DNA from: Diaphorobacter sp. HDW4B
GTDB taxonomy: Bacteria; Pseudomonadota; Gammaproteobacteria; Burkholderiales; Burkholderiaceae_C
Reading direction: 5' to 3'
Length of the DNA: 64,000 nucleotides
NCBI RefSeq assembly: GCF_011305535.1
Contig: NZ_CP049905.1
Coordinates: 1,374,001-1,438,000 of the forward strand
Shown: one piece after another, positions 5,287 through 22,226 of the stretch
Position numbering within the stretch: the first letter of the stretch is position 1
Layout of the letters: each line of letters opens with the position of its first letter
The notes under the pieces: model-generated
Seen by the model: only the letters and a program-made list of their open reading frames with translations
What the model was told of the DNA's origin: nothing
The model's database searches: none
Program-made: the position numbers and the translations under genes

Positions 5287-8006
5287 TCGTCTACCGGATA
5301 GGTCTGCGCGCGCGCCACACGCTCGTCAGCCGAACCGGGCCAGCGCACGGCATCTTCAGGCAGATCGGCCACCTTGCGCGCCAGCAGAAACGACTCCAGG
5401 TAGCCATCCAGCAAGGGCATCTCGATCGATGCAAACGAGGAACTGCGCAGCGCAGGCGGGGGATACATGCGAACCGGCTGATCCATGCCGCTGCTCAACA
5501 CCTCAAACCCCATGCTCGGTCCATACAAGGCTTGCAGACCTGACTCGGAGACGCGCCAGAAGTCGTTGGGCGCTGCATGCAGTGGCCACGTGTGTGGAAC
5601 GAAGTGCATGGTCAACCCGTCTGGTCGCAGAACATGATTGATCTGTGCTGCGACGACCCAGGGCGCTTCCAGATGTTCCATCACGCTCGATGACATCACT
5701 GCGTCCACCGACCCAGGCGCAAAGTGTTCGCTCAGCGCGTGCGCATCAGCGACCAGATCCACGCCCTCGCCCGCATGGATATCGACACGCACCACTCGGC
5801 ACTCGGGCTCCAGACAATCGGCCCACTCATCCGGGTGATCGTCACCTTTTCGTCCACCCAACACGATGACTGTGCCACCGCGCTCCTTCATGAGTCTGCG
5901 AAACGTCTCCAGACAGGCAATGCTGGAGAACTCCGTCTGATCGCGCTGCATGAGGTGCTGTGGCAACGCAAGCGTCGCGCCCACCGCCACGCCCTCGTCG
6001 CATTCGACCTGCAGCTCGACGGGCTGAAATGGTGGACATGAAAGGTAGCCCGAAAAACCCATGGTGCTTGCGGCACGCTGCTGCTCAAAGTAGGTCTGCA
6101 CGTCGGGTCGCGAACGCGTCACGAGTTCTGCCACGCTTTCTCTGCACGCCAGACGAATGCACTCCACGTTCTTGTCGGGCACATGCACCCAGCCAGACAC
6201 ATACACACCATGCGCGTCACACCATAGCTGGTCCACAAAGTGCACCAATGCAGGCACCACCATGGGCGCGGGCAACTTTGTGGATGCGTCACGGACCAGC
6301 GCCTTGGCGCGCATGTCCCGCCGCGTTGCATCAAGATCCTCTCGCACCCGGTCCAGCTTCGCCTGTCGCGATGGATCAGGATGCTGCCCGACGCACAAAC
6401 TCAGCACGACATAGGCCTCGTGCATCTCGGATGGCGGCTTCGCGCTGTGCAGTGCGCAATGGAATCTGGCGATCCACGCATCAAATGCCAGATCGATATC
6501 CTGTGCAAGACACCCATCCCATACGCCATCGCACAGCGCCGACAACAATCCTTGCGAGCGCATCGAATGGCTTGCCAGGCATTCGAATACACGATCGACA
6601 AATGCGTACTGCGCCGACGCATTGAACTCCAGAGCCAACCTTGCGCCGGTGCAGGCGAACAGGCGAATATCGGGCAGCCCCTGGGGCATGGACTGCCAGA
6701 GTTCGATGGCCTGCTCCGCCTTGCCATCCATCACCAGCAGCAAGGCCCGCTCCATCCGCACAGGGCCCAGCAATGAGGAAGACTCGATGAAGCAGAACGG
6801 CCCGATGGCCACTTCACGCTCCATCCACCGCAGCGCTTGTCGCAAACCGGCATCCGCATCCACCATGCGCCCCTCCAAGCGAGCCAGCATGGCCAAGTGA
6901 TATGCCATCGGTCCGAGAAAGCTCGGCAGTTGAGTCACATAGCTTTCGAAATCCGGCAACGAAATGGCCAGTTCAAAAGTGCTTTGACGCAGAAGTCGGC
7001 GCTCGTCCAGCAATGGACGCAAAGATGGGCATTCTTCCAGCCATGCACGGGCCGCAGCGAAATCGCCGCCGTTCATCAATGCCTTGAAAAGACGGTATGC
7101 GTGCCCCATGAGCATGGGCGATGCAGGGTCTGCATTCGGGCGCTGGAATGCATCGCGCAGGTATCGCTGGTAGACAACATGCCAGGACTCCACGCCCGCC
7201 CCGCAGCGCCGACTCTCCAGCGCCTGACGCGTGCCTGCTGTGGCGACCAGTTGGCCCCCATGGCGAACCACCTCCACGCATTCGAAGCCCGCACGCAACA
7301 GCGTGAGCTTGAGCATCTCGGCCGTGTAGAGACAGCGATGCTCTCCCGGAAAAAGGCGCGAGTAGATCTCCGATGGGTGTTCATGCGGCGTGATCGAATC
7401 CGCGTCTGGCGTGCTGAAAACCGCCAGACTCAGCGCGTCGGCCAAGGCCATGCGCAGTTGGCTGGCAAAGCCGACGGGGTCGTCCACATGTTCGATCACT
7501 TCGCTCGCGAGAATGAGATCGAAGCGTCTTGCATCCTGCGCAAGCCATGGGGCATCGAGCGGGCGTGCCAGAAGCTCACCTCGCAAATCCGTCGCCAGCG
7601 ACATCGGGTAGGGCTCGAACCCCAATGCAGGAACGTTCAGCGCATGCTCCACGAAGTCCATCGAGTAACCAAGCCCGCAACCGACATCGGCAAATGCATT
7701 CAGATGCTGCGGCAGGTTCTCCATGATCATCCGCGCCATGGGCTCCACACCGGCACCCAGCTCGGCGTAGTACTTCACATAGCCCGCATCCAGTTCGCCC
7801 GCATAGGTGTTCTCGTGCACGAGCGAGAAGAGACTGCAGCATTTCTCACATCGCCAGAATGGCACCCACTCTTCATCGCCATGCAGATATCTGGCACGAA
7901 CCCATTCACTGGTTTGTGGGTGCCCGCACGATGGGCAGACATCCCCCGATGAACCCTCCGCGAACTCGATCAGCGAAGAAGCAGGGAAGTGAGCGTATGT
8001 TTGCAT
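5283..8006 (-). CDS. Fused zinc-ribbon / double SAM-methyltransferase protein of a glycan operon
   Basis: A 907-aa multidomain protein. Order: a Cys4 zinc ribbon (CPSC...CEKC, about residues 24-58); a class I SAM methyltransferase with motif I DVGCGLGYS (about 105) and a SEVIEHVDDP segment (about 170); a long helical, TPR-like region (about 300-560); a small beta-rich domain (about 600-690); and a second methyltransferase with VIVLGGRKG (about 717), SSSVMEHLEAPW and VLRPDG motifs. The first half resembles methyltransferases found with O-antigen or holdfast-type glycan genes; the second is a type-11-like domain. Likely role: methylating or capping a surface glycan made by the two downstream glycosyltransferases. 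The ATG at 8006 was chosen; a GTG three codons upstream (8015) is also possible. Neither has a strong Shine-Dalgarno. Confidence 0.75.
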   Translation of the reverse strand: MQTYAHFPASSLIEFAEGSSGDVCPSCGHPQTSEWVRARYLHGDEEWVPFWRCEKCCSLFSLVHENTYAGELDAGYVKYYAELGAGVEPMARMIMENLPQHLNAFADVGCGLGYSMDFVEHALNVPALGFEPYPMSLATDLRGELLARPLDAPWLAQDARRFDLILASEVIEHVDDPVGFASQLRMALADALSLAVFSTPDADSITPHEHPSEIYSRLFPGEHRCLYTAEMLKLTLLRAGFECVEVVRHGGQLVATAGTRQALESRRCGAGVESWHVVYQRYLRDAFQRPNADPASPMLMGHAYRLFKALMNGGDFAAARAWLEECPSLRPLLDERRLLRQSTFELAISLPDFESYVTQLPSFLGPMAYHLAMLARLEGRMVDADAGLRQALRWMEREVAIGPFCFIESSSLLGPVRMERALLLVMDGKAEQAIELWQSMPQGLPDIRLFACTGARLALEFNASAQYAFVDRVFECLASHSMRSQGLLSALCDGVWDGCLAQDIDLAFDAWIARFHCALHSAKPPSEMHEAYVVLSLCVGQHPDPSRQAKLDRVREDLDATRRDMRAKALVRDASTKLPAPMVVPALVHFVDQLWCDAHGVYVSGWVHVPDKNVECIRLACRESVAELVTRSRPDVQTYFEQQRAASTMGFSGYLSCPPFQPVELQVECDEGVAVGATLALPQHLMQRDQTEFSSIACLETFRRLMKERGGTVIVLGGRKGDDHPDEWADCLEPECRVVRVDIHAGEGVDLVADAHALSEHFAPGSVDAVMSSSVMEHLEAPWVVAAQINHVLRPDGLTMHFVPHTWPLHAAPNDFWRVSESGLQALYGPSMGFEVLSSGMDQPVRMYPPPALRSSSFASIEMPLLDGYLESFLLARKVADLPEDAVRWPGSADERVARAQTYPVDE

Positions 8007-8015
8007 GGTCGACAC

Positions 8016-8236
8016 GCGAGTCCATGGTGAGCAATTGAGTGATGACGCACGACAAGCACCTGTCCGTCGCCTACAGCCAATGCAGATGAAGAAGCGTCAA
8101 ATTATTTCATTCACGTTAAGTTACGTCTATACACGATTAGCAATCATCTGAGAGATATCAATTGCCACGGCAGCGCTTGTCGCGATGGCTTCGTTGAGTG
8201 AACTCGCGCTCTTCATATGCCATGCAGGAACGGGAA
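8016..8236. other. Intergenic region upstream of the glycan operon
   Basis: Non-coding, clearly more A+T-rich than its surroundings between about 8095 and 8165. It presumably holds the promoter of the leftward glycan operon. I could not find a convincing pair of -35/-10 hexamers, and no ORF of substance is present. Confidence 0.5.
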
Positions 8237-8270
8237 AACAAAGAAGCGGGCCGTGGCCCGCTTCTTTGTT
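8237..8270 (-). terminator. Strong terminator closing the CsgG-type operon
   Basis: A perfect 16-bp inverted repeat, AACAAAGAAGCGGGCC (8237-8252) and its complement (8255-8270), separated by GT; in RNA the loop would open to about four bases. The flanking AACAAA/TTTGTT gives a U-rich tail on either strand. It lies 52 bases after the stop of the zinc-ribbon gene at 8322 and separates that operon from the promoter region of the glycan operon. Confidence 0.85.
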
Positions 8271-8321
8271 GTTTTGAGAATGGCTGAAATCGTGAGATCG
8301 TGAAATCGGCGTTCGGTCAGT

Positions 8322-8567
8322 TCATTTGCCAGAGAACAGAAAATACGCCACCACCAACGCGACCACTGCAACGATCAGGCGCGCAATCCACGGCGTCACC
8401 AGCCAAGCGCCGAGCGCCAGCAAACCCGTGCTCCAGACCTTCGGCGATTGCAGCGCGCCGCCCTTTTCGTCAGCCGATGCGGGCCTGAGCGGATAGCCGC
8501 AGGAGGGACAGGACGCCGCCTGCGTAGAGACCATGTGACCGCATTCGGGGCATTTCATCAGTGCCAT
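8322..8567 (-). CDS. Small zinc-ribbon membrane protein, last gene of the CsgG-type operon
   Basis: An 81-aa protein. It has an N-terminal double-CXXC zinc ribbon (CPEC at residues 6-9, CPSC at about 19-22), a short charged linker, and one or two C-terminal hydrophobic segments (from about residue 46). The start lies 2 bases after the upstream OmpA-family stop, so it is almost certainly co-transcribed and translationally coupled. Zinc-ribbon plus membrane-helix proteins are widespread and mostly uncharacterised. Its presence at the end of a secretion operon suggests a housekeeping or regulatory role at the inner membrane, which is inference only. A terminator follows at 8237-8270. Confidence 0.8.
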   Translation of the reverse strand: MALMKCPECGHMVSTQAASCPSCGYPLRPASADEKGGALQSPKVWSTGLLALGAWLVTPWIARLIVAVVALVVAYFLFSGK

Positions 8568-8569
8568 GT

Positions 8570-9259
8570 TCAGCCTCCTTGTGGGGGTGCCACTTCGATC
8601 AGTATCTGCACTCTGCGGTTGAGCTGTCGGCCTTCCGGGTTGTCTTTGCCATCGGGCGTGAGATTCGGTGCCACGGGCTCCCTGCGCCCCAGCCCTTGCG
8701 TGGCAGGATGGCGGCCCGTGCGCGTTTCCAGCGCCTTGGCCACAGACGCCGCGCGGCGCTCCGAAAGTCGGTCGTTGTAGGCGTCACTGCCCTTGCCATC
8801 GGTATGCCCACGCACCAGCAAAGGCGCGTTGGGATAGCTCTTGATCAGCTCGGCCGCCTTGTCCAGAGAAGGTGCCGCATCCACGCGCAGTTCATGTTTG
8901 TCGAAGTCGAACAGCACGTCGGCAGGCAGATCGATGGAGATCGCCTTGGCCGGTGTCGGCTGTGCCTTCAATTCGATGAGCAATTCGCGCGTGCGCTCAA
9001 GGCGCTCGGGCGGCACCTCGGCTTCGCGCAGCAGCGTGCTCGGCGTGTCGGCAGATTTCAAACCGGTCTGCGGACTGCTGCTGACCAAGCCACCGCCCGT
9101 GCCTTGAGGTGACAGCCTGGTCTCGGGCGCACCGGTCACGCGCTCCAGTCGAGTTTCTTCGCCGGACAGTTTTCTGTCGGAGCGAATCACATCGCGGGCC
9201 GACGCTGCAGAGCTCGCCATCGCAGCACAGACCATCGCGAGCCACAGCGATGATTTCAA
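8570..9259 (-). CDS. OmpA-family outer-membrane/peptidoglycan-binding protein
   Basis: About 229 aa. A signal peptide (KSSLWLAMVCAAMASSAASA) precedes a linker and a C-terminal OmpA/MotB-type peptidoglycan-binding domain. Signature parts seen: LFDFDKHEL, LVRGHTDGKGS, YNDRLSERRAASV and LGRREPVAPN, in the standard order. The start is ambiguous. A TTG at 9259 sits 8 bases after GGGAG and gives a compact signal peptide; GTG 9268 or TTG 9274 would only add residues. The likely role is anchoring an envelope machine or surface structure to peptidoglycan. It sits in the CsgG-type operon, between a lipoprotein gene (about 20 bases upstream) and the zinc-ribbon gene, so it probably serves that system. 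Confidence 0.88.
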   Translation of the reverse strand: MKSSLWLAMVCAAMASSAASARDVIRSDRKLSGEETRLERVTGAPETRLSPQGTGGGLVSSSPQTGLKSADTPSTLLREAEVPPERLERTRELLIELKAQPTPAKAISIDLPADVLFDFDKHELRVDAAPSLDKAAELIKSYPNAPLLVRGHTDGKGSDAYNDRLSERRAASVAKALETRTGRHPATQGLGRREPVAPNLTPDGKDNPEGRQLNRRVQILIEVAPPQGG

Positions 9260-9279
9260 AACATGCACTCCCAAACCCG

Positions 9280-9930
9280 TCAGCCCCCCGCAAGAGGCAG
9301 GTCCACACTGAAGCCCGGTGCGACGATGTTGTCGTCCGTATTGCTCTCGTTGAACACCAGTCGCAGCTTGCGCGCCGATGCCGGAACCGCGCCCATGAAA
9401 ACCAGTTGACCGTTCAGCATCTCGCCCTCGCGGATGATGAGATCGCGGTTGTTGGTGGGCCGCTTGATCTGCAGGCGCGAACCCGATTCGTCTTCCAGAT
9501 AGGTATCCAGCAGCGCCAGCATGGTCGAACTGGTGATGCGATTGGCAAACGAGATGCTCACATCCAGCACCGTCGCATCGGTGCCGATCTCGATGCCCTT
9601 GACCCGAACCGTGACGCCCGCCGCTGCCACGCCCTGCACGTTCAGTGGAAGCTTGCGCGGGGCAGCAAGAGACTGCGGCGCGGGAGCGGACTCCACGGTC
9701 GCCGCCGGAGCTGCGGGTGCCGCAGCGGCTGGCGCTGGCGCAGGCACGGGAGCGGGCGCAGGACTCGGTGCTGCGGGTGGATTGGTGCCAGCGCTTGGCT
9801 GCGAGCCCGCGGGCTTTTCATTGCATGCCGCCAGCAAAACAGCCACGGCCAACACACTTGCACTTGCTGCCATGCCGAAGCGCCCTCGCACACCATTTGC
9901 GTCGACCTGTGCACGCTTTTCTACATTCAT
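9280..9930 (-). CDS. Proline-rich lipoprotein of the CsgG-type operon
   Basis: A 216-aa exported lipoprotein. A long basic n-region and hydrophobic core end in the lipobox LLAAC (Cys36), followed by an alanine/proline-rich linker (about residues 40-80). The globular beta-rich domain has TVRVKGIEIG, DVSISFAN and LRLVFNES segments and recalls DUF4352-like immunoglobulin-fold domains, though this is not a firm match. The ATG at 9930 has a GAGGA Shine-Dalgarno 9-10 bases upstream. It is probably anchored in the outer membrane. The exact function is unknown; by position it is an accessory or stator component of the secretion locus. Confidence 0.8.
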   Translation of the reverse strand: MNVEKRAQVDANGVRGRFGMAASASVLAVAVLLAACNEKPAGSQPSAGTNPPAAPSPAPAPVPAPAPAAAAPAAPAATVESAPAPQSLAAPRKLPLNVQGVAAAGVTVRVKGIEIGTDATVLDVSISFANRITSSTMLALLDTYLEDESGSRLQIKRPTNNRDLIIREGEMLNGQLVFMGAVPASARKLRLVFNESNTDDNIVAPGFSVDLPLAGG

Positions 9931-9981
9931 TGTTCTGATTCCTCGCTATTCAAATTGATGCGCATGCGCCGCGCCTTGCGC

Positions 9982-10368
9982 TCAACGAATCGTGATGCTG
10001 TTGATCTGCGAAGGCTTGGACTTCTTGCCGCTTCCGTTGTCTTCGGGGCACTCGACTTCCTTCACATCACCGGTGTTGTGCCCCTGCACGATCACCGTGC
10101 GCCCCTTGAGGCTCGCCGCATTGACATCCACGCTGTTGACCGACACCGATCCGCCATTCGCGCAACGCACGCCGGATACGGAGTTGTTGGTCACCTCGAT
10201 GCGGTTGCCACCTTGCGATGTCTCGGCCTTCGCGCGCTGAGCAGCACTCGCCTCTGCGGCAGCCCCGGAGGCTTGCGCCGATGCGCCATGGCTGAACATC
10301 GCCATCAACAGCGATGCGCCAGCCAACCGAAGTCGGCCGCGTCTATCCTTGATTTCAAAATGGGCCAT
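9982..10368 (-). CDS. Small exported repeat protein, candidate minor subunit
   Basis: A 128-aa exported protein. The ATG at 10368 was chosen because AAGGAGGA lies 10 bases upstream; the in-frame ATG at 10377 is only 1 base from it. A signal peptide (ASLLMAMFSHGASAQA) precedes a beta-rich segment repeating the asparagine/serine/valine pattern of the giant repeat protein: NRIEVTNNSV, SVNSVDVNAASLKGR, VIVQGHNTGDV and a terminal INSITIR. Unlike the giant protein it has two cysteines (VRCANGG, VECPED) that could form a disulphide. It plausibly caps, nucleates or anchors a fibre made of the repeat, in the way CsgB relates to CsgA; that analogy is inference from shared repeats and gene context. Confidence 0.72.
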   Translation of the reverse strand: MAHFEIKDRRGRLRLAGASLLMAMFSHGASAQASGAAAEASAAQRAKAETSQGGNRIEVTNNSVSGVRCANGGSVSVNSVDVNAASLKGRTVIVQGHNTGDVKEVECPEDNGSGKKSKPSQINSITIR

Positions 10369-10405
10369 GTCATTCATTCCTCCTTCAAGACCATTCAAAA
10401 CGCAC

Positions 10406-11191
10406 TCAGGGAGCGCGCTGCACAGGAACACCCGGCAGGGTCGATCCCGGCACCGTTGACCCAGGAGCGGAAGCCTTGGGCGCAGCAGGTTGCGGCACGC
10501 CGGGTAACCCGCGTTCCGGCGTCACCGTGAGGCTTCCAACACTGCCCCCCGCATCGGCAGCACCATCCAGCGAACCTTCACGCCGAATGCGCTCCTGCAA
10601 CTGGCCCGCAAACCGCTCTGCCAGAGCCACCTCCTCCACCGCCATTTCATCGCCCAGTTCATTGATCATCGAAAGCACATTGGGCTGGGTCGCGCCACCC
10701 GGCTGCGACATGCGCTGCACCAAGCGGGCATAGCCCATGGCCTTGACGTTGTCCTTGGGCACCCCGATGCCCTTGCGGTTCATCTCGGACAAGCGCTGCA
10801 TGGCCAGCGGATCGCCACGCACCGCCGCCATCAGATACCAGCGGTAAGCCTGCCCCATGTCGCCCAGACCACTTCGCGGATTGCGATAAGCATCCCCCAC
10901 GAAAGACAGCAACTGCGGGTTCTGCGTGGTGACGGCCTCGCGTTTGAGACGCTCCAGCTCGTTGCGATACAGCGGCGCCTGACAACCCAACGCGGCCACG
11001 CCACGTTCCATCGCCTCGTTGCAGTCTTCGACAAAGCGCGCGGCAGTCGTCGCGCTCACCGGATTGGCCGCAGCGGGCGCTGTCGCCGGAGCATGCTGCG
11101 CATGCGCACTCCATTGCACACCAAGGACAGCCGCCAGCACTGCCGCATTTCTGGCGGTCGATCTGCAGACGGTTCGCCAGCGCGGCATCAT
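10406..11191 (-). CDS. Sel1/TPR-like repeat exported protein
   Basis: A 261-aa protein with an N-terminal signal peptide (AAVLAAVLGVQWSAHA). Its helical centre has Sel1-like repeat features (SFVGDAYRNPRSGLGD, AYRWYLMAAVRGDPLAM and GIGVPKDNVKAMGYARL). A proline/alanine-rich C-terminal tail has repeated PGSTVPGSTLPG segments. The start at 11191 overlaps the stop of the CsgG-family gene (ATGATG over TGA), so translation is coupled. Sel1 proteins usually scaffold protein complexes; in the periplasm this one could act as an adaptor or chaperone for the secretion pore. It does not look like CsgE or CsgF by eye. Confidence 0.78.
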   Translation of the reverse strand: MMPRWRTVCRSTARNAAVLAAVLGVQWSAHAQHAPATAPAAANPVSATTAARFVEDCNEAMERGVAALGCQAPLYRNELERLKREAVTTQNPQLLSFVGDAYRNPRSGLGDMGQAYRWYLMAAVRGDPLAMQRLSEMNRKGIGVPKDNVKAMGYARLVQRMSQPGGATQPNVLSMINELGDEMAVEEVALAERFAGQLQERIRREGSLDGAADAGGSVGSLTVTPERGLPGVPQPAAPKASAPGSTVPGSTLPGVPVQRAP

Positions 11192-12342
11192 GAGCCCACC
11201 TTTTCGTTGGCCGCCATGGGTTGATCCAGATTCGCGGCTCTGGGCTGCACCAGCGTGCCATCCCATGCCATCGGCACGCCGAAGAACAGCGGCTCAAAGC
11301 CCTTCCACTTCATCACATCGACAGGCCCAAGGTCCGAGTAACGTTCGTTGTAGACCTTCTGCAGCGCCTGTTGCGTCGCATCGTCGAGCTTTTGCGTGAC
11401 CTCCACCGGCTCGCCATATTTGCGCAGGCTGACCTGGATGAGGCCCATCTTGAGTTCCGGCGTCAACGACTCGTAGGCGCGGCTCATGTTGCCGACCACC
11501 ACCGGGTCGGGCTTGCCGCCCGGAATGCAGCGCCAATACGGCGTGTTCGTGGCCTTGCCGATCAGTTCCAGCACGCTCAGATCCACCAACGTGCGGATGG
11601 CCGAATGCCGCCCCTGCAGATACTTGCCTTCCAATTTGAAGCCGAAGGCGTCGCCGTAGAAGCCAACGCTCGCGTTGTCTTCGGAGCCGAAGTTGAGCAC
11701 CTTGACGACGTTGGATGCCTGGATCTGCGGCACCATCTGCTGCGTGGAAAAGCTCACCAGATTCAGATCGAGCGCCAGCGCCGAATAGATCGCCGTGCGC
11801 TTGCGATCACCACCTAGTTCCACCTTGCCCCTGCCGCCACCAAATCCAACGCTGAGCGAGTTGGAGCGTCCCGCGCCGGCAATCGCCCGGTCGAATTCCG
11901 TCAATGCACCCGTGATCAGAAAGTCAGGCATGGTGACGCCGAACTTCGCACCGAGCTGCGCTTGCGACACCAGATAGTCCGGGTGATAAGGCACGTACAC
12001 GATGCGAGCGCCAATGCGATTGACCGCCGTGCGCACCATCTCCGTGATGTCGCCCGGAATCTCCGCGCCCGCCAGCGGGCTGGAAAGATTGGTGGCATCC
12101 ATGATGTTGCGCGTCTGCATGTAGATGACCGGATCACCGTCCTTGTAGATGTCCAGCATGCGTCCAAAGCGCCCCAGCGATTCCGCATAGGGGCTCAGAT
12201 TGGACACCGGCAGCAGCTTGTCCGCCTCTCTCTCCTGCATCAGAGTCTTCGCATCCTTGAGTGCGTTCTCGGTCGATGCACATCCCACCAAAGAGGCAGC
12301 AGCCACCACAAGGGCCGCACGCCGAAAGATTGTTTTGTTCAT
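11188..12342 (-). CDS. CsgG/HfaB-family outer-membrane secretion lipoprotein
   Basis: A 384-aa lipoprotein of the CsgG family, which forms the nonameric outer-membrane channel that secretes curli subunits; HfaB is the holdfast-anchor homologue. The start MNKTIFRR at 12342 gives a short signal peptide and lipobox LVGC (Cys21). Family features: IPGDITEMVRTAVNR, a predicted core strand FLITGALTEF (142-150), a glycine-rich stretch (SVGFGGGRGKVELGG) as in the transmembrane hairpin region, then LDLNLVSFST (about 191-200), which matches the AVNLRVVNVSTGEI-type block of CsgG. A GFKLEGKYLQGRHSAI segment follows, then a helical C-terminus. It is about 100 residues longer than E. coli CsgG because of a C-terminal extension. 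It lies between the 152-aa exported protein and the Sel1 protein. The assignment rests on motif order and not on an alignment. Confidence 0.85.
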   Translation of the reverse strand: MNKTIFRRAALVVAAASLVGCASTENALKDAKTLMQEREADKLLPVSNLSPYAESLGRFGRMLDIYKDGDPVIYMQTRNIMDATNLSSPLAGAEIPGDITEMVRTAVNRIGARIVYVPYHPDYLVSQAQLGAKFGVTMPDFLITGALTEFDRAIAGAGRSNSLSVGFGGGRGKVELGGDRKRTAIYSALALDLNLVSFSTQQMVPQIQASNVVKVLNFGSEDNASVGFYGDAFGFKLEGKYLQGRHSAIRTLVDLSVLELIGKATNTPYWRCIPGGKPDPVVVGNMSRAYESLTPELKMGLIQVSLRKYGEPVEVTQKLDDATQQALQKVYNERYSDLGPVDVMKWKGFEPLFFGVPMAWDGTLVQPRAANLDQPMAANEKVGS

Positions 12343-12407
12343 GTTGCTTGTCAGAGTTGCCGCCCGGAAGGCGCGAGGGGTTGGACGGCCACGCGGGCCC
12401 TCCGTGT

Positions 12408-12866
12408 TCAGCGTGGCGTGTTCAGCACAGTGATGTTTTCGACACCCTTGCCTTCGACGTACAGCGTGACGGTGCCGTTCACATTGCCCTGGATCGTCGG
12501 ACTGGCAATGCGCAAGGTGCCGTCGGCTGCGCGCTGGACGTCGGAGTAACTGGTGCGAATCACGATGTTCTGCTGGTTGTCGGGCAGCTTCAGCGTGCCG
12601 TCCGGCTGAACCAATGCACTCTGGTCCACCACCTTGTTGCTCGCAATGGCGTAGTTGACGCGCGATCTGGCGCTGACCGACTGGAACACGCTCTCGGTGA
12701 CTTTCACGCCGGATTGCGACATGTCCTTGTAGGCACCGAGTTGTTCGCTGTAGTTCAGCATCTGCGCATTCGCGCCGAAGCTGCACAACACCAGCAAGCC
12801 ACTCAGGCCCAGCACGCGCGCGCTTTGGCGCGCCGCACTTCTCGATGTCAGGGGTTGGTTTTTCAT
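12408..12866 (-). CDS. Exported 152-aa protein of unknown function, CsgG-operon accessory
   Basis: A 152-aa protein with a clear signal peptide (VLGLSGLLVLCSFGANAQ). The mature part contains repeated beta-prone segments (SVSARSRVNYAIASNKVV, LKLPDNQQNIVIR, NVNGTVTLYVEG and GVENITVLNT). AAAGGA lies just upstream of the ATG. It sits between the giant repeat protein and the CsgG-family pore, where curli and holdfast loci carry accessory or minor-subunit genes (csgE, csgF or hfaA). I see no convincing CsgE or CsgF signature. The ending, alternating hydrophobic residues with Asn and Thr, would suit assembly onto a beta-fibre. Function unknown. Confidence 0.7.
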   Translation of the reverse strand: MKNQPLTSRSAARQSARVLGLSGLLVLCSFGANAQMLNYSEQLGAYKDMSQSGVKVTESVFQSVSARSRVNYAIASNKVVDQSALVQPDGTLKLPDNQQNIVIRTSYSDVQRAADGTLRIASPTIQGNVNGTVTLYVEGKGVENITVLNTPR

Positions 12867-12921
12867 GGCCTTTCCTTTCTTCTTCCAGTTGTGCTCATCC
12901 GGATTCGAAATGAGCGTCGCC

Positions 12922-15900
12922 TCAATTGCTGACGATGTTGAATGCCGGCACCACGGTGACGGAGTTGTTCACCACGCCGACCGATGGCGTCGCGTACGTG
13001 TAGCCGGGGTTGGCCGCGTAGGCCATGTTGCCGACTACACCGGCCGACCCCACGATCGCGCCACCGATGTTGCGAACACTGCCGGAGGTAATGCCCGCAG
13101 CAGCAGCCGTGCGCGTGCCCACGATGGCCACCATGCCGGTGATCACGCCGTGGTTGATCACGGAATTGGAGGTTCCGCCCGCCGCCGCACTGCCGTTGTT
13201 GCCAGCGATCACCACGCTGCCGGTCATGAGCCCGCGATTGACCAGCGAGTTGACGGTGCCTCCCATCGTCGCGCTGCCGCGGTTCGCCGCGATCAGCACC
13301 TGCCCGGTGAGCTGCCCCTTGTTGTCCACGCTGTTGACCGTGCCGCCACCTGTGGCGCTGCCGTGGTTGCCCACCAGCGTGATGCTCGCGCCGGTGATGC
13401 TGCCGGAGTTGTCCACGCTGTTGACGGTGCCGCCGCGCTGTGTGCTGCCCCCGTTGCCGATGATGGATATCTGACTGCCCTTGATGGAGCCGCTGCCCGT
13501 CACACTGTTGATAGTGCCGCCACCTTGCGTGCTGCCCTGATTGCCGAGAATCGCAATCTGCGCGCCAGCGATGCTGCCACCCACGTTCACGCTGTTGGCC
13601 GTGCCATTGTTCGCAGAGCCGGTGTTGCCCAGAATGGTGATGCTGCTGCCCGAAATCTGGCCGCTTCCGGTCACGCTGTTGATCACGCCGTTGTTGGTGG
13701 CCGAGCCCTGATTGCCGATCACCGCAATCTGGCTGCCACGCACGCCGCCATCCACATCCACGCTGTTGGCCTTGGCGCTGCGTGCGCTGCCGCGATTGGT
13801 CGCCACCGTGACGGACGAGCCCGTGATGCGCGCACCTTGCTTGGTGCGCACGCTGTTGATGAGCGCTTCCTCGCCGCCGGTCTGCGCGCTGCCCTGATTG
13901 GCCATGATCTGCACCGTGGCGTTCTCGATGGTGCCATCGGCATGCACGCTGTTGGTCAGCGCCATCCTGTCGTCATCCGCGCGCGTCTCGCCCGCCGTGT
14001 TGGCAAGCAACGTGGCATTCAGACGGCTCATGCTTCCGGAACCGGACTGCGTGATGCTGTTGGCCGATGCCAGCCCCTTGGTCGCGGTGACGTTGCTCGC
14101 CGTATTGCCGATGAGCTGCAGGCTCGCATTGCGCATGGCCGACAACACTTGAATCGCATTGGCGTTGGCGTGACCGACCCCTTTGTCGAACACCGCGTGA
14201 CCCAGCACGGTGTCTTCATCGCCCGCACTTCGGACGCTGGACGCCGTGTTGCCGATGAGGGTCGCCGTGCTCGCTTCCAGACTGCCGCGACCATTGATCG
14301 ACAAGGCATTCGCGTTGATGCGACCACCCTCCGCATTGAGACTGCGCACCGTGTTGCCGACGATCTGCAAGGGCGTGTTCGACAGGCGCGTCGAGCTTTC
14401 TCCATCGATGTACAGGCTGTTGGCCGCGAGGATGCCGTTGCTCTTGGAGCCCGCACCGGCGACCTGCGATGCACCGCCCGATGCACGCACGTCATCGGCC
14501 TTGTTCGCGAGAATGCTCACCGCGCTGTTCTGCACGCGCGCACCACGATAGGCCGCCAGCGCATTCACCAGTGCCGTGCCGCCATCCACATGCACCTGAC
14601 GTGCGGTGTTCATGCTGATGAGCCAGGGCGACGATTGATCGATCTTCGCATTGGAATTGAGCACCAGCGCATTGGCAGCAGCGCGCGCATTGCTTTCGCT
14701 GCGCGCCAAGCCCGCGACCGCCGACGAAGACTTGGCTGCCGAACTCATGTCGCGTGCCGTGTTGCCGATCATCGAGCCCGATGCGGAAAGCTGCGAGTCG
14801 CTCTCCTTGCCACGCTCGACGGACACGCTGTTGCCCATCAGAATGCCGCCCTTCGCGGTCAGCCCATGCGCCTCGTTGTTGGCAAAGTTGACGCTGCTGG
14901 CGTCCAGCTTTGAGCCACTCACGGACAGCGTGTTGGCCATTGCAGTGGACTGCTGACTGGCGGAGTACAGCAGGCTGCCACCGGCTTGCCCCGAGAAGCC
15001 CGTCGAGCTCACTTGCGAAGCACGGTTGTTCATCAAGGTGACGGTCGATTTCTCCACCTGGCCCTCGCTCACCGCCACCGAATTCACCGCGGCAAAACCG
15101 CCGGAGCCCGTCACCGTACGGCCTTCGTTGCCCTGCAATTGCAGTGTGGATTTCTGCAGCGTGGACTCCTTGTCCAACGCGACCGTGTTGCTCAGTGCCC
15201 GGCCATTCTTTTCGAAGGAGCCGACCAGCCCCATGCCGATGGAGCCAGAACCGCCAGCTGTGCGCACCTGCTCCGACACATTGCGATCGAGATGAATGCT
15301 TCCGCCTTGCACCGTCGAGCCATCAAGCCAGATGCTGTTGGCCGATGCGCCACCGCCCGTGGCCACCACGTCCGTGGCGCGATTGTTGGACAGTGAATGC
15401 AGCGGCGACTCATTGAGTTGCCCCTTCTGCACCGAGATCGCATTCGCCAGCGCCGAAGCCGAGATGCGCACATCGGCCAACGCGCCGCCCAGCAGGCTGC
15501 CTTCGCCACCGAATGCCTGCACGTTGGTGGCCTGATTCTTCTGCAGGTTCGCGTCGTAGCCCGCGCCACCCGTGAGTTGGTGGTCGGTGAAGCTGATGCT
15601 GTTGGCCAGCGCACTGCCGCCCGTGGACGTCATCTGCGTGGCCTTGTTGTCGGACAGATTCAGGCGCGCCGCCTGCAACTCGCTGTTCGACACGGCCACC
15701 GTGTTGGCCGCCGCAACGCCCGTGAGATTGACCTCGGCCAGCATGCCGCGACCCAACCCCGCACTGCCGCCACCGGCGCGAATCGCTTGCGCCTGATTGT
15801 TCGAACTTTGAATCTGCGAATCACGCAACTTGCTGCGCGACGCCGTCAGCGCATTGGCCAGCGCCGCGCCGCCCATGGAGACCACATCGTCGGCCTGGTT

Positions 15901-16494
15901 CTGCACCATCGACACCCGCGCTTCATGGGCTTCGGTGGCGTCCAGCAAAACGCTGTTGGCGGTTGCCCGGCCAGGCAACTGCAATGACCCCGTGCCCAGC
16001 AGCACCGAAGCCTTGGCACCGAAGGCATTCACCTGCGATGCCTTGTTGTTCATGACCAGCAGCCGGCTCGATGTGAGCGGCTTGCTGCCTTCCCCGCTGG
16101 CGACCATGATCACGTTCGCCGTGGCGGCACCGCCCAGCGCGTTGACCAATCCAGTCACCTGATTTCGAAGTACCTGCGCCTGCGAGTCGCGCATGTGAAT
16201 GGCCGCAATGCCCACACTGTTGGCTTGTGCGGTTCCGGCCAGATCGATGCTCATCCCGACATTGGCGAGCGCCGATCCCTTGCCACCGGACGAGATGACC
16301 GGTCCCTGAGATTTGTTGCCCTGCACCTGCACCTGGGAGTTGCCATTCATTTCCGTGCCGGCACTGTTCTTGTGCCAACCCAGCCCCGTCAGCATGGACT
16401 CCTGCGCACTCGCGTATTGCGTGACCGAAACCATGGCCGCCCCCAGCACGCCCAATGCAAACCAATGCGGTGGAGATGTTCGTGACTTGTGCAC
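12922..16494 (-). CDS. Giant exported repeat protein, predicted beta-solenoid adhesin or amyloid-like fibre subunit
   Basis: An 1190-aa protein with an N-terminal signal peptide (FALGVLGAAMVSVTQYASAQ); the start is GTG at 16494 with AAGGGA upstream. Almost the whole mature protein is repetitive. Up to about residue 870, units of roughly 35-45 aa follow the pattern A-N-[ST]-V...S.L..S.L.L..N.A..V.A.GG.A.AN. After that, regular units of 28-30 aa follow the pattern NSV....I.G..I.I.GN.GSA..GG. I found no cysteine and very few tryptophans. Such Asn/Gly/Ser/Val ladders are typical of secreted beta-solenoids and curli-like amyloids. No autotransporter barrel, LPXTG motif or type I secretion signal was seen, so export through the adjacent CsgG-type pore is the natural inference. 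The DNA repeats are diverged, so the array is old. Confidence 0.82.
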   Translation of the reverse strand: MHKSRTSPPHWFALGVLGAAMVSVTQYASAQESMLTGLGWHKNSAGTEMNGNSQVQVQGNKSQGPVISSGGKGSALANVGMSIDLAGTAQANSVGIAAIHMRDSQAQVLRNQVTGLVNALGGAATANVIMVASGEGSKPLTSSRLLVMNNKASQVNAFGAKASVLLGTGSLQLPGRATANSVLLDATEAHEARVSMVQNQADDVVSMGGAALANALTASRSKLRDSQIQSSNNQAQAIRAGGGSAGLGRGMLAEVNLTGVAAANTVAVSNSELQAARLNLSDNKATQMTSTGGSALANSISFTDHQLTGGAGYDANLQKNQATNVQAFGGEGSLLGGALADVRISASALANAISVQKGQLNESPLHSLSNNRATDVVATGGGASANSIWLDGSTVQGGSIHLDRNVSEQVRTAGGSGSIGMGLVGSFEKNGRALSNTVALDKESTLQKSTLQLQGNEGRTVTGSGGFAAVNSVAVSEGQVEKSTVTLMNNRASQVSSTGFSGQAGGSLLYSASQQSTAMANTLSVSGSKLDASSVNFANNEAHGLTAKGGILMGNSVSVERGKESDSQLSASGSMIGNTARDMSSAAKSSSAVAGLARSESNARAAANALVLNSNAKIDQSSPWLISMNTARQVHVDGGTALVNALAAYRGARVQNSAVSILANKADDVRASGGASQVAGAGSKSNGILAANSLYIDGESSTRLSNTPLQIVGNTVRSLNAEGGRINANALSINGRGSLEASTATLIGNTASSVRSAGDEDTVLGHAVFDKGVGHANANAIQVLSAMRNASLQLIGNTASNVTATKGLASANSITQSGSGSMSRLNATLLANTAGETRADDDRMALTNSVHADGTIENATVQIMANQGSAQTGGEEALINSVRTKQGARITGSSVTVATNRGSARSAKANSVDVDGGVRGSQIAVIGNQGSATNNGVINSVTGSGQISGSSITILGNTGSANNGTANSVNVGGSIAGAQIAILGNQGSTQGGGTINSVTGSGSIKGSQISIIGNGGSTQRGGTVNSVDNSGSITGASITLVGNHGSATGGGTVNSVDNKGQLTGQVLIAANRGSATMGGTVNSLVNRGLMTGSVVIAGNNGSAAAGGTSNSVINHGVITGMVAIVGTRTAAAAGITSGSVRNIGGAIVGSAGVVGNMAYAANPGYTYATPSVGVVNNSVTVVPAFNIVSN

Positions 16495-16548
16495 TCAAAG
16501 TCCCTTCGTGGAAAACTTCACGGAGCCGCTCGGCATGGAGCGACGGAG

Positions 16549-16586
16549 AACTTGCAGCAGCGGCCAACACGCCGCTCCTGCAAGTT
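16549..16586 (-). promoter_or_regulatory. Intercistronic hairpin between minor and giant repeat genes
   Basis: AACTTGCAG (16549-16557) pairs with CTGCAAGTT (16578-16586), and AGCGGC (16559-16564) pairs with GCCGCT (16571-16576), with one 1x1 mismatch and a six-base loop. It lies 20 bases after the stop of the small repeat gene and 55 bases before the giant gene's start. No T-run follows on the minus strand, so it looks like an mRNA-stabilising or processing hairpin that would raise the small gene's mRNA relative to the giant one. Confidence 0.6.
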
Positions 16587-16605
16587 CTGGCTACAGCTCA
16601 GTCAC

Positions 16606-16965
16606 TCAGTTGATGTTCACCGAGTTGACGTTGGCCGTACCACCGATGGCCTTGATGTTGGTGGCTTCGTTGTCCGAAACCGTGATGTGGGAGTCAGTGA
16701 TCTTGGAGCCGGTGATGTTCACCGAGTTGACGTTGGCAAGGCCTTCCATCGAAATCTCGGCCACTTTGATGCCGACCTTGCCGCCACCGGCCGTCACGTC
16801 GGTTGCCTTGTTGCGAGAAACGGTGATGGTGCTGTTCTTGATTTCCGAACCGGCCGAGCCCTTGCCCGAAAACAGGCCAGGAATCGAGATGTTTCCGCTC
16901 TGTGCAAATGCGGAGCCACAGGTAAGAGCCAAAAGGGCAACTGCGGTGGTAGCAATCTTTCGCAT
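16606..16965 (-). CDS. Small exported two-repeat protein, first gene of the CsgG-type operon
   Basis: A 119-aa protein with a signal peptide (IATTAVALLALTCGSAFA). ATG 16965 is preferred over 16971 because AAAGGA is 8 bases upstream. The mature protein holds two copies of the giant protein's unit: KNSTITVSRNKATDVTAGGG then ANVNSVNITGSKITDSHIT...NEATNIKAIGG, ending NVNSVNIN. It is therefore a minimal version of the large repeat protein, cysteine-free after cleavage. As first gene after an A+T-rich promoter region and followed by a hairpin, it may be the most abundant product of the operon and could be the main polymerising subunit, with the giant protein as scaffold or adhesin. That role is inferred. 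Confidence 0.78.
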   Translation of the reverse strand: MRKIATTAVALLALTCGSAFAQSGNISIPGLFSGKGSAGSEIKNSTITVSRNKATDVTAGGGKVGIKVAEISMEGLANVNSVNITGSKITDSHITVSDNEATNIKAIGGTANVNSVNIN

Positions 16966-16971
16966 ATTCAT

Positions 16972-17404
16972 GATCCTTTGAAAGTTGAGATTGAACTGAA
17001 AAGCAGCCTCACACGGCTAGCGAATGGATTCTCAACGTCAACCGAATTCACGAACGTAAAAAAAAGTTCCTTTCGACCTGATTCAACGGGATATTGTCAT
17101 AAATGCACTTCATCGAGAGAAAATCATCCATAGCCGTCACAATCACACCCAAAGAAGCTTAACAATCAATCACTTACAACCACTAACACGCCTTACTCGA
17201 TGATCCCATTGAAAGATGATGTATGAATTCAAAACAGTTCATAACATATTCGAATGCAAAAATACTTGACACTGAATAGAACCGGAACAATTGACATCCG
17301 CATAAGCAAATAATCAAAGTGAATATCCCAACAATTGATATCCTTTGAATTTTTTGATCTATAGAGATATTCACAATATCGTCACAAAAATCCCTCAGTC
17401 ACTC
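16972..17404. promoter_or_regulatory. Long A+T-rich divergent regulatory region
   Basis: About 430 bases without a credible gene, strikingly A+T-rich compared with the rest of the window. It separates the leftward CsgG-type operon from a rightward lipoprotein gene. On the plus strand two TTGACA hexamers (17266-17271 and 17291-17296) could serve as -35 elements, but no good -10 follows at 17 bases. A+T-rich leaders are typical of H-NS/MvaT-silenced or strongly regulated surface-structure operons. A 63-codon frame on the minus strand (17183-17374) has no ribosome-binding site or recognisable product and was not called. Confidence 0.5.
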
Positions 17405-18013
17405 ATGAAAATCGCTTTTTTCGCTCCACTGATAATCGCGCTCACAGCCTGCACACCTGAATCCCATCCCTTCGGATCACAGAGCATTTCCTACCCCGGC
17501 GACGAACAGATTTCGTCGGCATTGGAAGCGCAGCTCGTGAACGATCCTCACAGCGCGGCGGCCCGTGAACTGATTCAGTCATTGGGTGGCGACAAGGGGA
17601 AACTGCGCTACACCATCCATCGCGTGATTTCTCGCGGCGGGGGCAGCTTCGAGGCGCACTACGATGCCGTGCTGGTGATGGGTCAGCCGGGCGAACAAAG
17701 CTTGCAGGCCTTGTATGCGCGCATGATTCCCGACGACGAGAAAGCCAAGCTGCCCGATGCCAGTCTTGCCGCCTATTCGGGTTGGCTCAACAAGCATGCG
17801 GAGACCCTGAAAAAGAACTCTGCGCAACAGGCACAGGGGCAGGCCTTGAGCGACACACTGGCATCGCTCACCAAGTGCTATGGCGAGGCCAAGCCTGGCT
17901 CGGAAGTGGTGGTCATGAATGGACTGGGCGCGCTGCTGTTGCCCGAGCGCAGAGGCCTGTATGCGGAAAAACTGGCGATGCCAAACACCGAGATTCGTTG
18001 CCTTCCCGCCTGA
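17405..18013 (+). CDS. Lipoprotein of unknown function
   Basis: A 202-aa lipoprotein. The start at 17405 gives a short signal peptide with lipobox LTAC (Cys16); an upstream in-frame ATG (17345) would bury it. The mature part is soluble and mixed alpha/beta, with segments such as FEAHYDAVLVMG and MNGLGALLLPERRGLYAEKL, and two further cysteines near the end (TKCYGEA, IRCLPA). No family was recognised. It is divergent from the CsgG-type operon, sharing the A+T-rich region, and may be co-regulated with it. It converges on uvrD with only 49 bases between stops and no clear terminator. Confidence 0.75.
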   Translation: MKIAFFAPLIIALTACTPESHPFGSQSISYPGDEQISSALEAQLVNDPHSAAARELIQSLGGDKGKLRYTIHRVISRGGGSFEAHYDAVLVMGQPGEQSLQALYARMIPDDEKAKLPDASLAAYSGWLNKHAETLKKNSAQQAQGQALSDTLASLTKCYGEAKPGSEVVVMNGLGALLLPERRGLYAEKLAMPNTEIRCLPA

Positions 18014-21901: not shown

Positions 21902-21977
21902 GGGCTCTTAGCTCAGTTGGTAGAGCAGCGGACTCTTAATCCGTTGGTCGAGTGTTCGAATCACTCAGGGCCCACCA
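21902..21977 (+). tRNA. tRNA-Lys (anticodon CTT), copy 1
   Basis: A 76-base cloverleaf including encoded CCA. The acceptor stem GGGCTCT pairs with AGGGCCC; the D-arm is TAGCTCAGTTGGTAGAG; the anticodon stem GCGGA/TCCGT encloses the loop CTCTTAA with anticodon CTT (reads AAG, Lys). The T-arm carries GTTCGAATC. It is identical to the second copy at 22151. Confidence 0.96.
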
Positions 21978-22150: not shown

Positions 22151-22226
22151 GGGCTCTTAGCTCAGTTGGTAGAGCAGCGGACTCTTAATCCGTTGGTCGA
22201 GTGTTCGAATCACTCAGGGCCCACCA
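22151..22226 (+). tRNA. tRNA-Lys (anticodon CTT), copy 2
   Basis: All 76 bases match the copy at 21902, including the CTT anticodon and encoded CCA. It has its own -10 (22106-22111) and its own terminator (22235-22268). No integrase or attachment-site duplication was seen beside it. Confidence 0.96.

Follow-up and report, generated by a model that had tools for sequence, protein, structure and literature searches.

Positions 8,322 to 16,965 of a 64,000-nucleotide stretch of the Diaphorobacter sp. HDW4B genome (contig NZ_CP049905.1, positions 1,374,001 to 1,438,000; this whole stretch is called the window here) hold an operon of nine genes, named A to I. By the parts tested, this CsgG-family operon belongs neither to curli nor to holdfast, the two settings in which CsgG pores have been studied experimentally. 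We read it as encoding a CsgG-type secreton that is anchored to the wall and exports solenoid surface proteins of its own, a reading to which we give a probability of about two in three. An adhesive filament or coat on the surface is the most likely product.

The CsgG-family pore protein

The predicted pore is D, a lipoprotein of 384 aa encoded at 11188..12342 on the minus strand, in which the Gly20-Cys21 of the lipoprotein signal is invariant in all 19 aligned sequences. By profile comparison and predicted structure, D has the CsgG fold. A wide, 46-row profile of D matched E. coli K-12 CsgG with a probability of 92.7% (E 4.2e-7, 125 columns), and when the AlphaFold2 model (pLDDT 72, pTM 0.66) was compared by Foldseek with the Protein Data Bank (PDB), the best 25 matches were all CsgG chains (3.8e-12 to 5.5e-7). 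The model shows an alpha/beta part, three strands of 24–27 residues and a helical tail, and the place of the three long strands matches that of the membrane hairpins of CsgG, whose fold combines an alpha/beta domain in the periplasm with two such beta-hairpins. The nearest NCBIfam model was HfaB, which matched 38 of the 46 aligned members at E<=0.01 (best 2.8e-7), and Pfam CsgG matched five of them at E<=0.1 (best 0.0011). A PDB sequence search with the D profile returned eight weak matches, with CsgG at 0.86 and 1.0; the three COA6 chains that topped this search (0.26–0.28) were taken as chance.

The HfaB match ends at residue 262 of D (position 258 of the 264 in the model), and about 120 residues of D lie beyond it. 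PG_binding_1 was found at this tail position over the cut-off in three of four long distant relatives (1.6e-5 to 1.1e-9), and directly behind the CsgG part in 13 of the 46 aligned members at E<=0.1. The pore of a divergent locus outside the family (L057), 45% identical to D, matched the same domain at 302–340 below the cut-off (E 0.004), and the tail of the window's own D had no Pfam match. From the alignment with these relatives we infer a peptidoglycan-binding-like domain at about residues 298–340 of D, in a tail that was modelled with high confidence (block pLDDT 87–94, residues 251 to 360). The D-profile PDB search also placed three proteins of the peptidoglycan-binding kind over the tail region (0.34–1.6), a hint rather than proof; for two of the three, we take the matched part itself to be of that nature. 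This domain was missing from the earlier gene list for this DNA.

Such a tail could also belong to a structural complex between periplasm and wall that secretes nothing, in which D, the OmpA-domain protein H and the lipoprotein G would bind peptidoglycan and the solenoid proteins described below would serve as spacers or an inner coat within the envelope. The tail of D and H are both wall-binding in appearance, and the next fold match of D after CsgG was FlgT (2e-4), which belongs to a periplasmic ring of the flagellum and has no secretion role. However, all 25 CsgG matches stood ahead of FlgT, the model has its three long strands where CsgG has its membrane hairpins, and the largest solenoid protein, at 1190 aa, would exceed the width of the periplasm. 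We consider this purely structural role improbable and prefer a secreting pore that is held to the wall.

Two other CsgG-domain genes in the same genome passed the Pfam CsgG cut-off (L071:9712-10569 and L072:9702-10805), and the reading frames around them, inspected by eye on one strand without a family scan, included no curli-like genes. PMC3521004 reports many Pfam CsgG matches away from curli loci, which its authors regard as likely paralogues of a larger family.

The repeat proteins

Three exported proteins of the operon are built on one repeat, as the earlier note had claimed. The mature part of A (119 aa; 16606..16965, minus strand) is a single double unit of ~85 aa with the pattern NxA...GG...ANVNSVNI. 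B (1190 aa; 12922..16494, minus strand) has, counted by eye, about nine double units (each of ~50 + ~36 aa) in front of about ten single units of 28 aa and a C-terminal end, and F (131 aa; 9982..10377, minus strand) is a two-unit version. The profile of A, run on the window's genome, found eight further stretches, every one within B, and the profiles of A and F matched each other with a probability of 97 (E 4e-11). An NSV-type core occurs 27 times in B, whereas 500 shuffled sequences had 7.3 on average and never more than 15, and the autocorrelation of Gly positions in B was best at 85 and 28. Cysteine is absent from mature A in 34 of 34 sequences and from B in 32 of 33 models; F has two conserved cysteines in all but one of 29 orthologues, and that one has three. 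Weak single-protein matches of A, B, C and F to Pfam and NCBIfam families (G8, SKI, beta-lactamase and others) were taken as chance, and PDB sequence searches with the profiles of A and B gave nothing usable.

AlphaFold2 modelled B, from 25 orthologues including itself, as a repeat structure of nearly all strand (pLDDT 80, pTM 0.79), a predicted long beta-solenoid. Its five nearest fold neighbours, none of them significant (0.02–0.08), were EtpA, a GH110 enzyme, PfbA, pertactin and antigen 43. Curlin carries an N-terminal targeting signal; A and B have a stretch in common directly behind the signal peptide (by eye, PGL...GSAGSE in A and TGL...NSAGTE in B), and this stretch is a candidate targeting signal of a similar kind.

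The gap between A and B contains a strong stem-loop of 42 nt (11 + 6 bp; 16547..16588, minus strand), and none of 60 dinucleotide shuffles was as stable. Among 18 gaps chosen from 32 orthologous A-B gaps, 13 reached z < -1.6 in dinucleotide shuffles with a 60-nt window and five failed, and the sequences are unlike one another. Mononucleotide shuffles of whole gaps gave weaker z values, from -5.7 to +2.1. Gaps after C passed as well (10/21), whereas most of those after B (2/13 passed), E (3/13) and F (2/11) failed, so A is not the sole gene with a hairpin behind it. A hairpin in such a place can increase the abundance of the mRNA that precedes it. Because A has one repeat unit, is the first gene and is followed by a strong hairpin, it may be the abundant subunit and B a rare long one. 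For the same reasons the very large repeat protein may not be the main cargo, as the earlier note had proposed it to be.

Conservation and co-occurrence

We scanned the GTDB genome collection with D alone, a search that reaches close relatives only, and obtained 34 relatives from 41 candidate stretches. Their genera are Acidovorax, Ottowia, Diaphorobacter, Xenophilus, Pseudacidovorax, Xylophilus, Variovorax and Brachymonas, and others among them have no genus name. The neighbourhood survey that the earlier note had proposed found the nine-gene linkage conserved: the complete A-to-I set is present in one order and on one strand in 28 of the 34. The incomplete loci are five that are cut by a contig end (L035, L040, L047, L049 and L055) and L044, in which A to H are present but I could not be recognised. 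Named isolates carry the operon, among them Diaphorobacter aerolatus KACC 16536 and Acidovorax radicis N35, so deletion tests are feasible. In one of the 28, from Diaphorobacter aerolatus, E is divided between two reading frames and H extends beyond its usual end (L024:11035-12026 and 12483-14495), which may be either sequence error or real frameshift.

Close relatives of D (63–100% identity) were present in 15 of 299 sampled genomes of the window's family, the window's genome included, and a further 45 had a distant relative only. A was present in the same 15 genomes, on the same contig as D and 3.6 to 4.5 kb from it, and the other 284 had neither A nor a close D. The earlier note would have counted it against its reading if the repeat proteins had been widespread away from the pore gene; A occurred in 0 of the 284 genomes without a close D. 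The pair was found in 8 of 141 sampled genera, which suggests that the nine-gene operon is gained and lost as a block.

A class-wide draw of 369 genomes, searched with the A profile at E<=0.01, yielded only the window's genome and one weak match (E 0.004), which contains stop codons and was discarded. The sole copy seen outside the family is the divergent L057 (genome G016), whose own family is represented by one sampled genome. This locus has an OmpA gene, an A-like protein (32% identity), a C-like protein (25%), D (44–45%) and a DUF2807 protein; B, E, F and G were not detected by BLAST at 1e-3. The DUF2807 gene (L057:8563-9285), encoding a putative adhesin head, lies directly 3' of the pore gene, in the place of the Sel1 gene.

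Search for curli and holdfast components

The operon proteins had no match to csgE, csgF, curlin, HfaA or HfaD models, and across the whole genome nothing exceeded the cut-off for CsgE, CsgF, curlin, HfaA or HfaD. Each of these genome-wide searches included 14 control genomes, one of which was over the cut-off, with E. coli or Caulobacter among the responders. Curlin_rpt gave no match in the genome at E<=1. The earlier note had seen neither csgE nor csgF, and these searches agree for both operon and genome; for csgD and the fap genes, which it had not seen either, no genome-wide search was made.

Directly upstream of the pore gene lies C (12408..12866, minus strand), a small exported protein of 152 aa without a known family. 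It is conserved at 42–68% identity across 17 aligned family members, and against Pfam it had nothing above the cut-off (three weak families among 19 members, best 0.0027). A PDB search with its profile found a synthetic PPR protein as best match (2.5e-5), and no matched stretch passed alone.

The position of C and the kinship of D with HfaB could indicate an apparatus like the HfaABD holdfast anchor, in which D, A/B and C would tether exopolysaccharide to the outer membrane without any free fibre. C stands directly before the pore gene just as hfaA precedes hfaB, and HfaB is the NCBIfam model nearest to D in 38 of the 46 members. PMC6707917 describes HfaB as CsgG-like and reports that HfaA and HfaD depend on it for their arrival at the outer membrane and that the three proteins together anchor the holdfast. 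The best genomic E values for HfaA and HfaD were, however, 0.56 and 0.39, neither within the operon, in searches to which Caulobacter did respond (no search was made for holdfast polysaccharide genes), and the HfaB model, 264 positions long, stops before the tail domain of D. A holdfast-like tether is thus an unlikely account of the operon, and a secreton with its own surface proteins explains it better.

A CsgG-type pore together with short exported repeat subunits would also be expected of true curli with diverged subunits, in which the repeats would be altered curlin repeats and C would be CsgF. PMC3521004 reports that curli operons vary widely, that two curli systems occur in Burkholderiales and that some alphaproteobacterial curli have neither csgE nor csgF, so the absence of both is not by itself decisive against curli. 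Curlin was not found in the genome either, and profile comparison gave 3% for A with CsgA, no relation to curlin, and 0.3% for C with CsgF. The units of 28 and 85 aa, with NxA...GG...ANSV in place of the curlin motif, also argue against it, and we regard diverged curli as very improbable indeed.

Gene order and the remaining genes

The nine reading frames run uninterrupted on the minus strand and span 16971–8322 in our open reading frame (ORF) reading of the window. A could start at 16971 or 16965 (121 or 119 aa); the second Met is the start in most A orthologues, so 16965 is probably right. The gaps are 111 nt (A-B), 55 (B-C), 65 (C-D), an overlap of 4 (D-E), 28 (E-F), 51 (F-G), 5 (G-H) and 2 (H-I), and a perfect 16-bp inverted repeat with a 2-nt loop (8237..8270) forms the closing hairpin terminator, in agreement with the earlier description of close spacing and a perfect terminal hairpin. 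A simple terminator scan of 7500-17800 did not list this hairpin. No clear common regulatory site was found upstream of A among 11 loci compared. Outside the operon, two tRNA genes with identical scores lie near each other (21902-21974 and 22151-22223).

Export signals were judged by eye to be present on eight genes, A to H, with D and G marked as lipoproteins by a lipobox. E (10406..11191, minus strand) is an exported Sel1-repeat protein of 261 aa, with Sel1 at E 5.8e-6, slightly below the family cut-off. G (9280..9930, minus strand) is a lipoprotein of 216 aa with a Pro/Ala-rich stretch followed by a conserved domain without a known family, and its lipobox is present in 28 of 30 orthologue models. 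H (8570..9274, minus strand) is an exported OmpA-domain protein of 234 aa (PF00691, E 1.4e-15), and I (8322..8567, minus strand) is a zinc-ribbon protein of 81 aa (E 2.2e-8) with one C-terminal membrane segment seen by eye and a four-Cys motif in 28 of 28 orthologues. These matches bear out the OmpA, zinc-ribbon and Sel1 assignments that had been made from the sequence alone.

Sister loci

A search of the family with D gave 56 distant matches. We examined 22 of these neighbourhoods, mostly the better-scoring ones, by BLAST with the proteins of one of them, L058, which lies in the window's genome and is itself counted among the 22. L058 (G000:C1:5032000-5051500) is a second, four-gene CsgG-like/peptidoglycan-binding/DUF4384 locus that the earlier gene list did not include, with genes for a Sel1 protein (7071-8345), the pore (8446-10206), a small partner (10373-10801) and a cargo protein (10872-11465) that has a different repeat and a Cys-rich C-terminal tail. 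A Sel1-type gene was downstream of the pore in all 22 neighbourhoods and a small exported protein was upstream in 21. Further upstream, 21 of the 22 encoded a protein in which a (Q/N)N(hydrophobic)(A/S)(S/T)N repeat unit occurs three times or more, a pattern used without a shuffled control, and in the last, L059, such repeats were seen by eye. PG_binding_1 and DUF4384 were both found in three of three pores scanned, L058 and two from the wider order, and a fourth, L064, had DUF4384 only.

Eight loci from other families of the order were checked (L060, L061, L062, L064, L065, L067, L068 and L069). Six had an OmpA gene, and a QSG-type repeat protein was near the pore in L064, L065, L068 and L069. 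A draw across the phylum found sister-type pores at E<=1e-15 in 17 of 299 genomes, 12 of them outside the order, and we examined ten loci from these 12. In six (L154-L159), genes for repeat cargo and for a small exported partner lie upstream of the pore, and OmpA is encoded downstream of it. Among the other four, L160 ends at the pore, L161 had nothing that passed the filter, L162 has OmpA downstream, and L163 has OmpA upstream and lacks the partner motif. In L154-L159, L162, L065 and L069 the pore class stands beside other exported tandem-repeat proteins (QIQGNT..., QNQSGLLN...) and a small exported protein that ends in a V.GDVIN.C-like motif, and L154-L159 and L162 also have in common a downstream protein of ~100 aa that contains a CWQ motif. 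Profile comparison showed homology between the small partners of the near and distant sister groups (96.7%, E 3.7e-10). The possibility that A is a homologue of the sister cargo was rejected by profile comparison, which aligned only a short motif or the signal peptide.

With homologous pores, the same position of the partner and cargoes without detectable homology, the class of pore and the place of the partner are common to the nine-gene operon and the sister loci, and the cargo differs. These loci could represent a secretion class across Pseudomonadota that is distinct from curli and holdfast, made up of wall-fixed CsgG-family pores with a built-in peptidoglycan-binding domain, a small exported partner and fast-changing tandem-repeat solenoid cargo, of which the nine-gene operon, with a 1190-aa solenoid exported by a curli-type pore, would be the most elaborate form; we think this wider claim about evenly balanced between right and wrong.

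Proposed mechanism and its standing

We infer export via D, the order of assembly, a location at the surface, adhesion and the roles of C, E, G, H and I from this gene set. A, B, F and C would enter the periplasm by way of Sec signal peptides. The lipoprotein D would form a CsgG-type ring in the outer membrane and grip the cell wall by its peptidoglycan-binding-like tail, and H, perhaps with G and E, would brace or gate the ring. A, B and F would then cross D unfolded and fold outside into a beta-solenoid of one repeat, with A as a short, probably abundant unit, B as a rare concatemer that spans or nucleates, and F as a cysteine-bearing cap or anchor. C would be a dedicated partner of the pore, in the position of CsgF or HfaA.

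Several results weigh against this reading. D alone had no match to Pfam CsgG at E<=1, its match to HfaB (22 bits, E 7e-5) fell short of the 300-bit cut-off of that model, and a tight 19-row profile without distant relatives reached only 13% with CsgG. The confidence of the D model is middling, with the outer halves of the long strands weak (~49-67), and its TM-scores with CsgG were 0.29-0.36 by query and 0.46-0.64 by target. Fold comparison of B with the PDB found none at E<=0.001, A is unrelated to curlin, and C has no detectable relation to CsgF or CsgE. The idea that C is a homologue of the small partner of the sister loci was rejected, since profile comparison aligned only a short motif or the signal peptide, and in four of the eight other-family loci (L060, L061, L062 and L067) no repeat cargo was found by the two patterns used. 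The earlier note had called the 384-aa lipoprotein CsgG-type and had made this call depend on a match to CsgG profiles. That match fails in the narrow case of the single protein and Pfam CsgG, but the 46-row profile and the Foldseek comparison both reach CsgG, and the call stands at that level. The further claim of a distinct nucleation-secretion fibre system gains from a CsgG-fold pore nearest HfaB and an operon conserved as a unit; the fibre and its assembly by nucleation are putative, and the main cargo may not be B.

If the reading is right, the operon would be a third conserved setting for CsgG, with a wall-binding pore and cargo like beta-helix adhesins, and may point to a general route for surface proteins. 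It would also raise the question of how a 1190-aa solenoid traverses a channel whose known substrates are small unfolded subunits. CsgG also serves as a nanopore for sequencing, so naturally fused CsgG variants would be of practical interest. Literature searches, with most subscription journals outside their coverage, found no account of CsgG with DUF4384, of curli-like CsgG loci in Comamonadaceae or Acidovorax, or of CsgG joined with a peptidoglycan-binding domain and Sel1 at the outer membrane, and a looser search by genus name brought up no paper in which CsgG occurs.

Comparison with known systems

The sister CsgG, PG_binding_1 and DUF4384 loci resemble the operon in their pores, which are homologous to D over the CsgG and peptidoglycan-binding parts, and in the order cargo, small exported protein, pore and Sel1. 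They differ in that their pores are ~500-600 aa with DUF4384 near the end, their cargoes have other repeats, and their small partner, which has a VxGDxVNxC-type motif at its end, shows no detectable relation to C. The HfaABD system of Caulobacter is similar in having a CsgG-family lipoprotein pore, HfaB being the nearest NCBIfam model, encoded with exported partners. In contrast, the nine-gene unit has no HfaA or HfaD match, its pore has the additional peptidoglycan-binding-like tail, its cargo is the 85/28-aa repeat family, and it includes Sel1, OmpA and zinc-ribbon genes.

Curli, or type VIII secretion, has in common with the operon the fold and profile of the pore, a repeat cargo with a signal peptide, and a gene for a small partner. 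CsgE, CsgF and curlin were not found here, the cargo repeat is unrelated, and the cargo reaches 1190 aa in the window and up to 1235 aa in relatives, compared with curlin homologues of up to 529 aa in PMC3521004. Beta-helix adhesins resemble the cargo in that B is predicted to be a long beta-solenoid; EtpA, pertactin, antigen 43 and PfbA account for four of the five top fold matches of B, none of them significant (E 0.02-0.08). These adhesins are exported by two-partner, autotransporter or cell-wall sorting routes, whereas B is encoded beside a CsgG-type pore.

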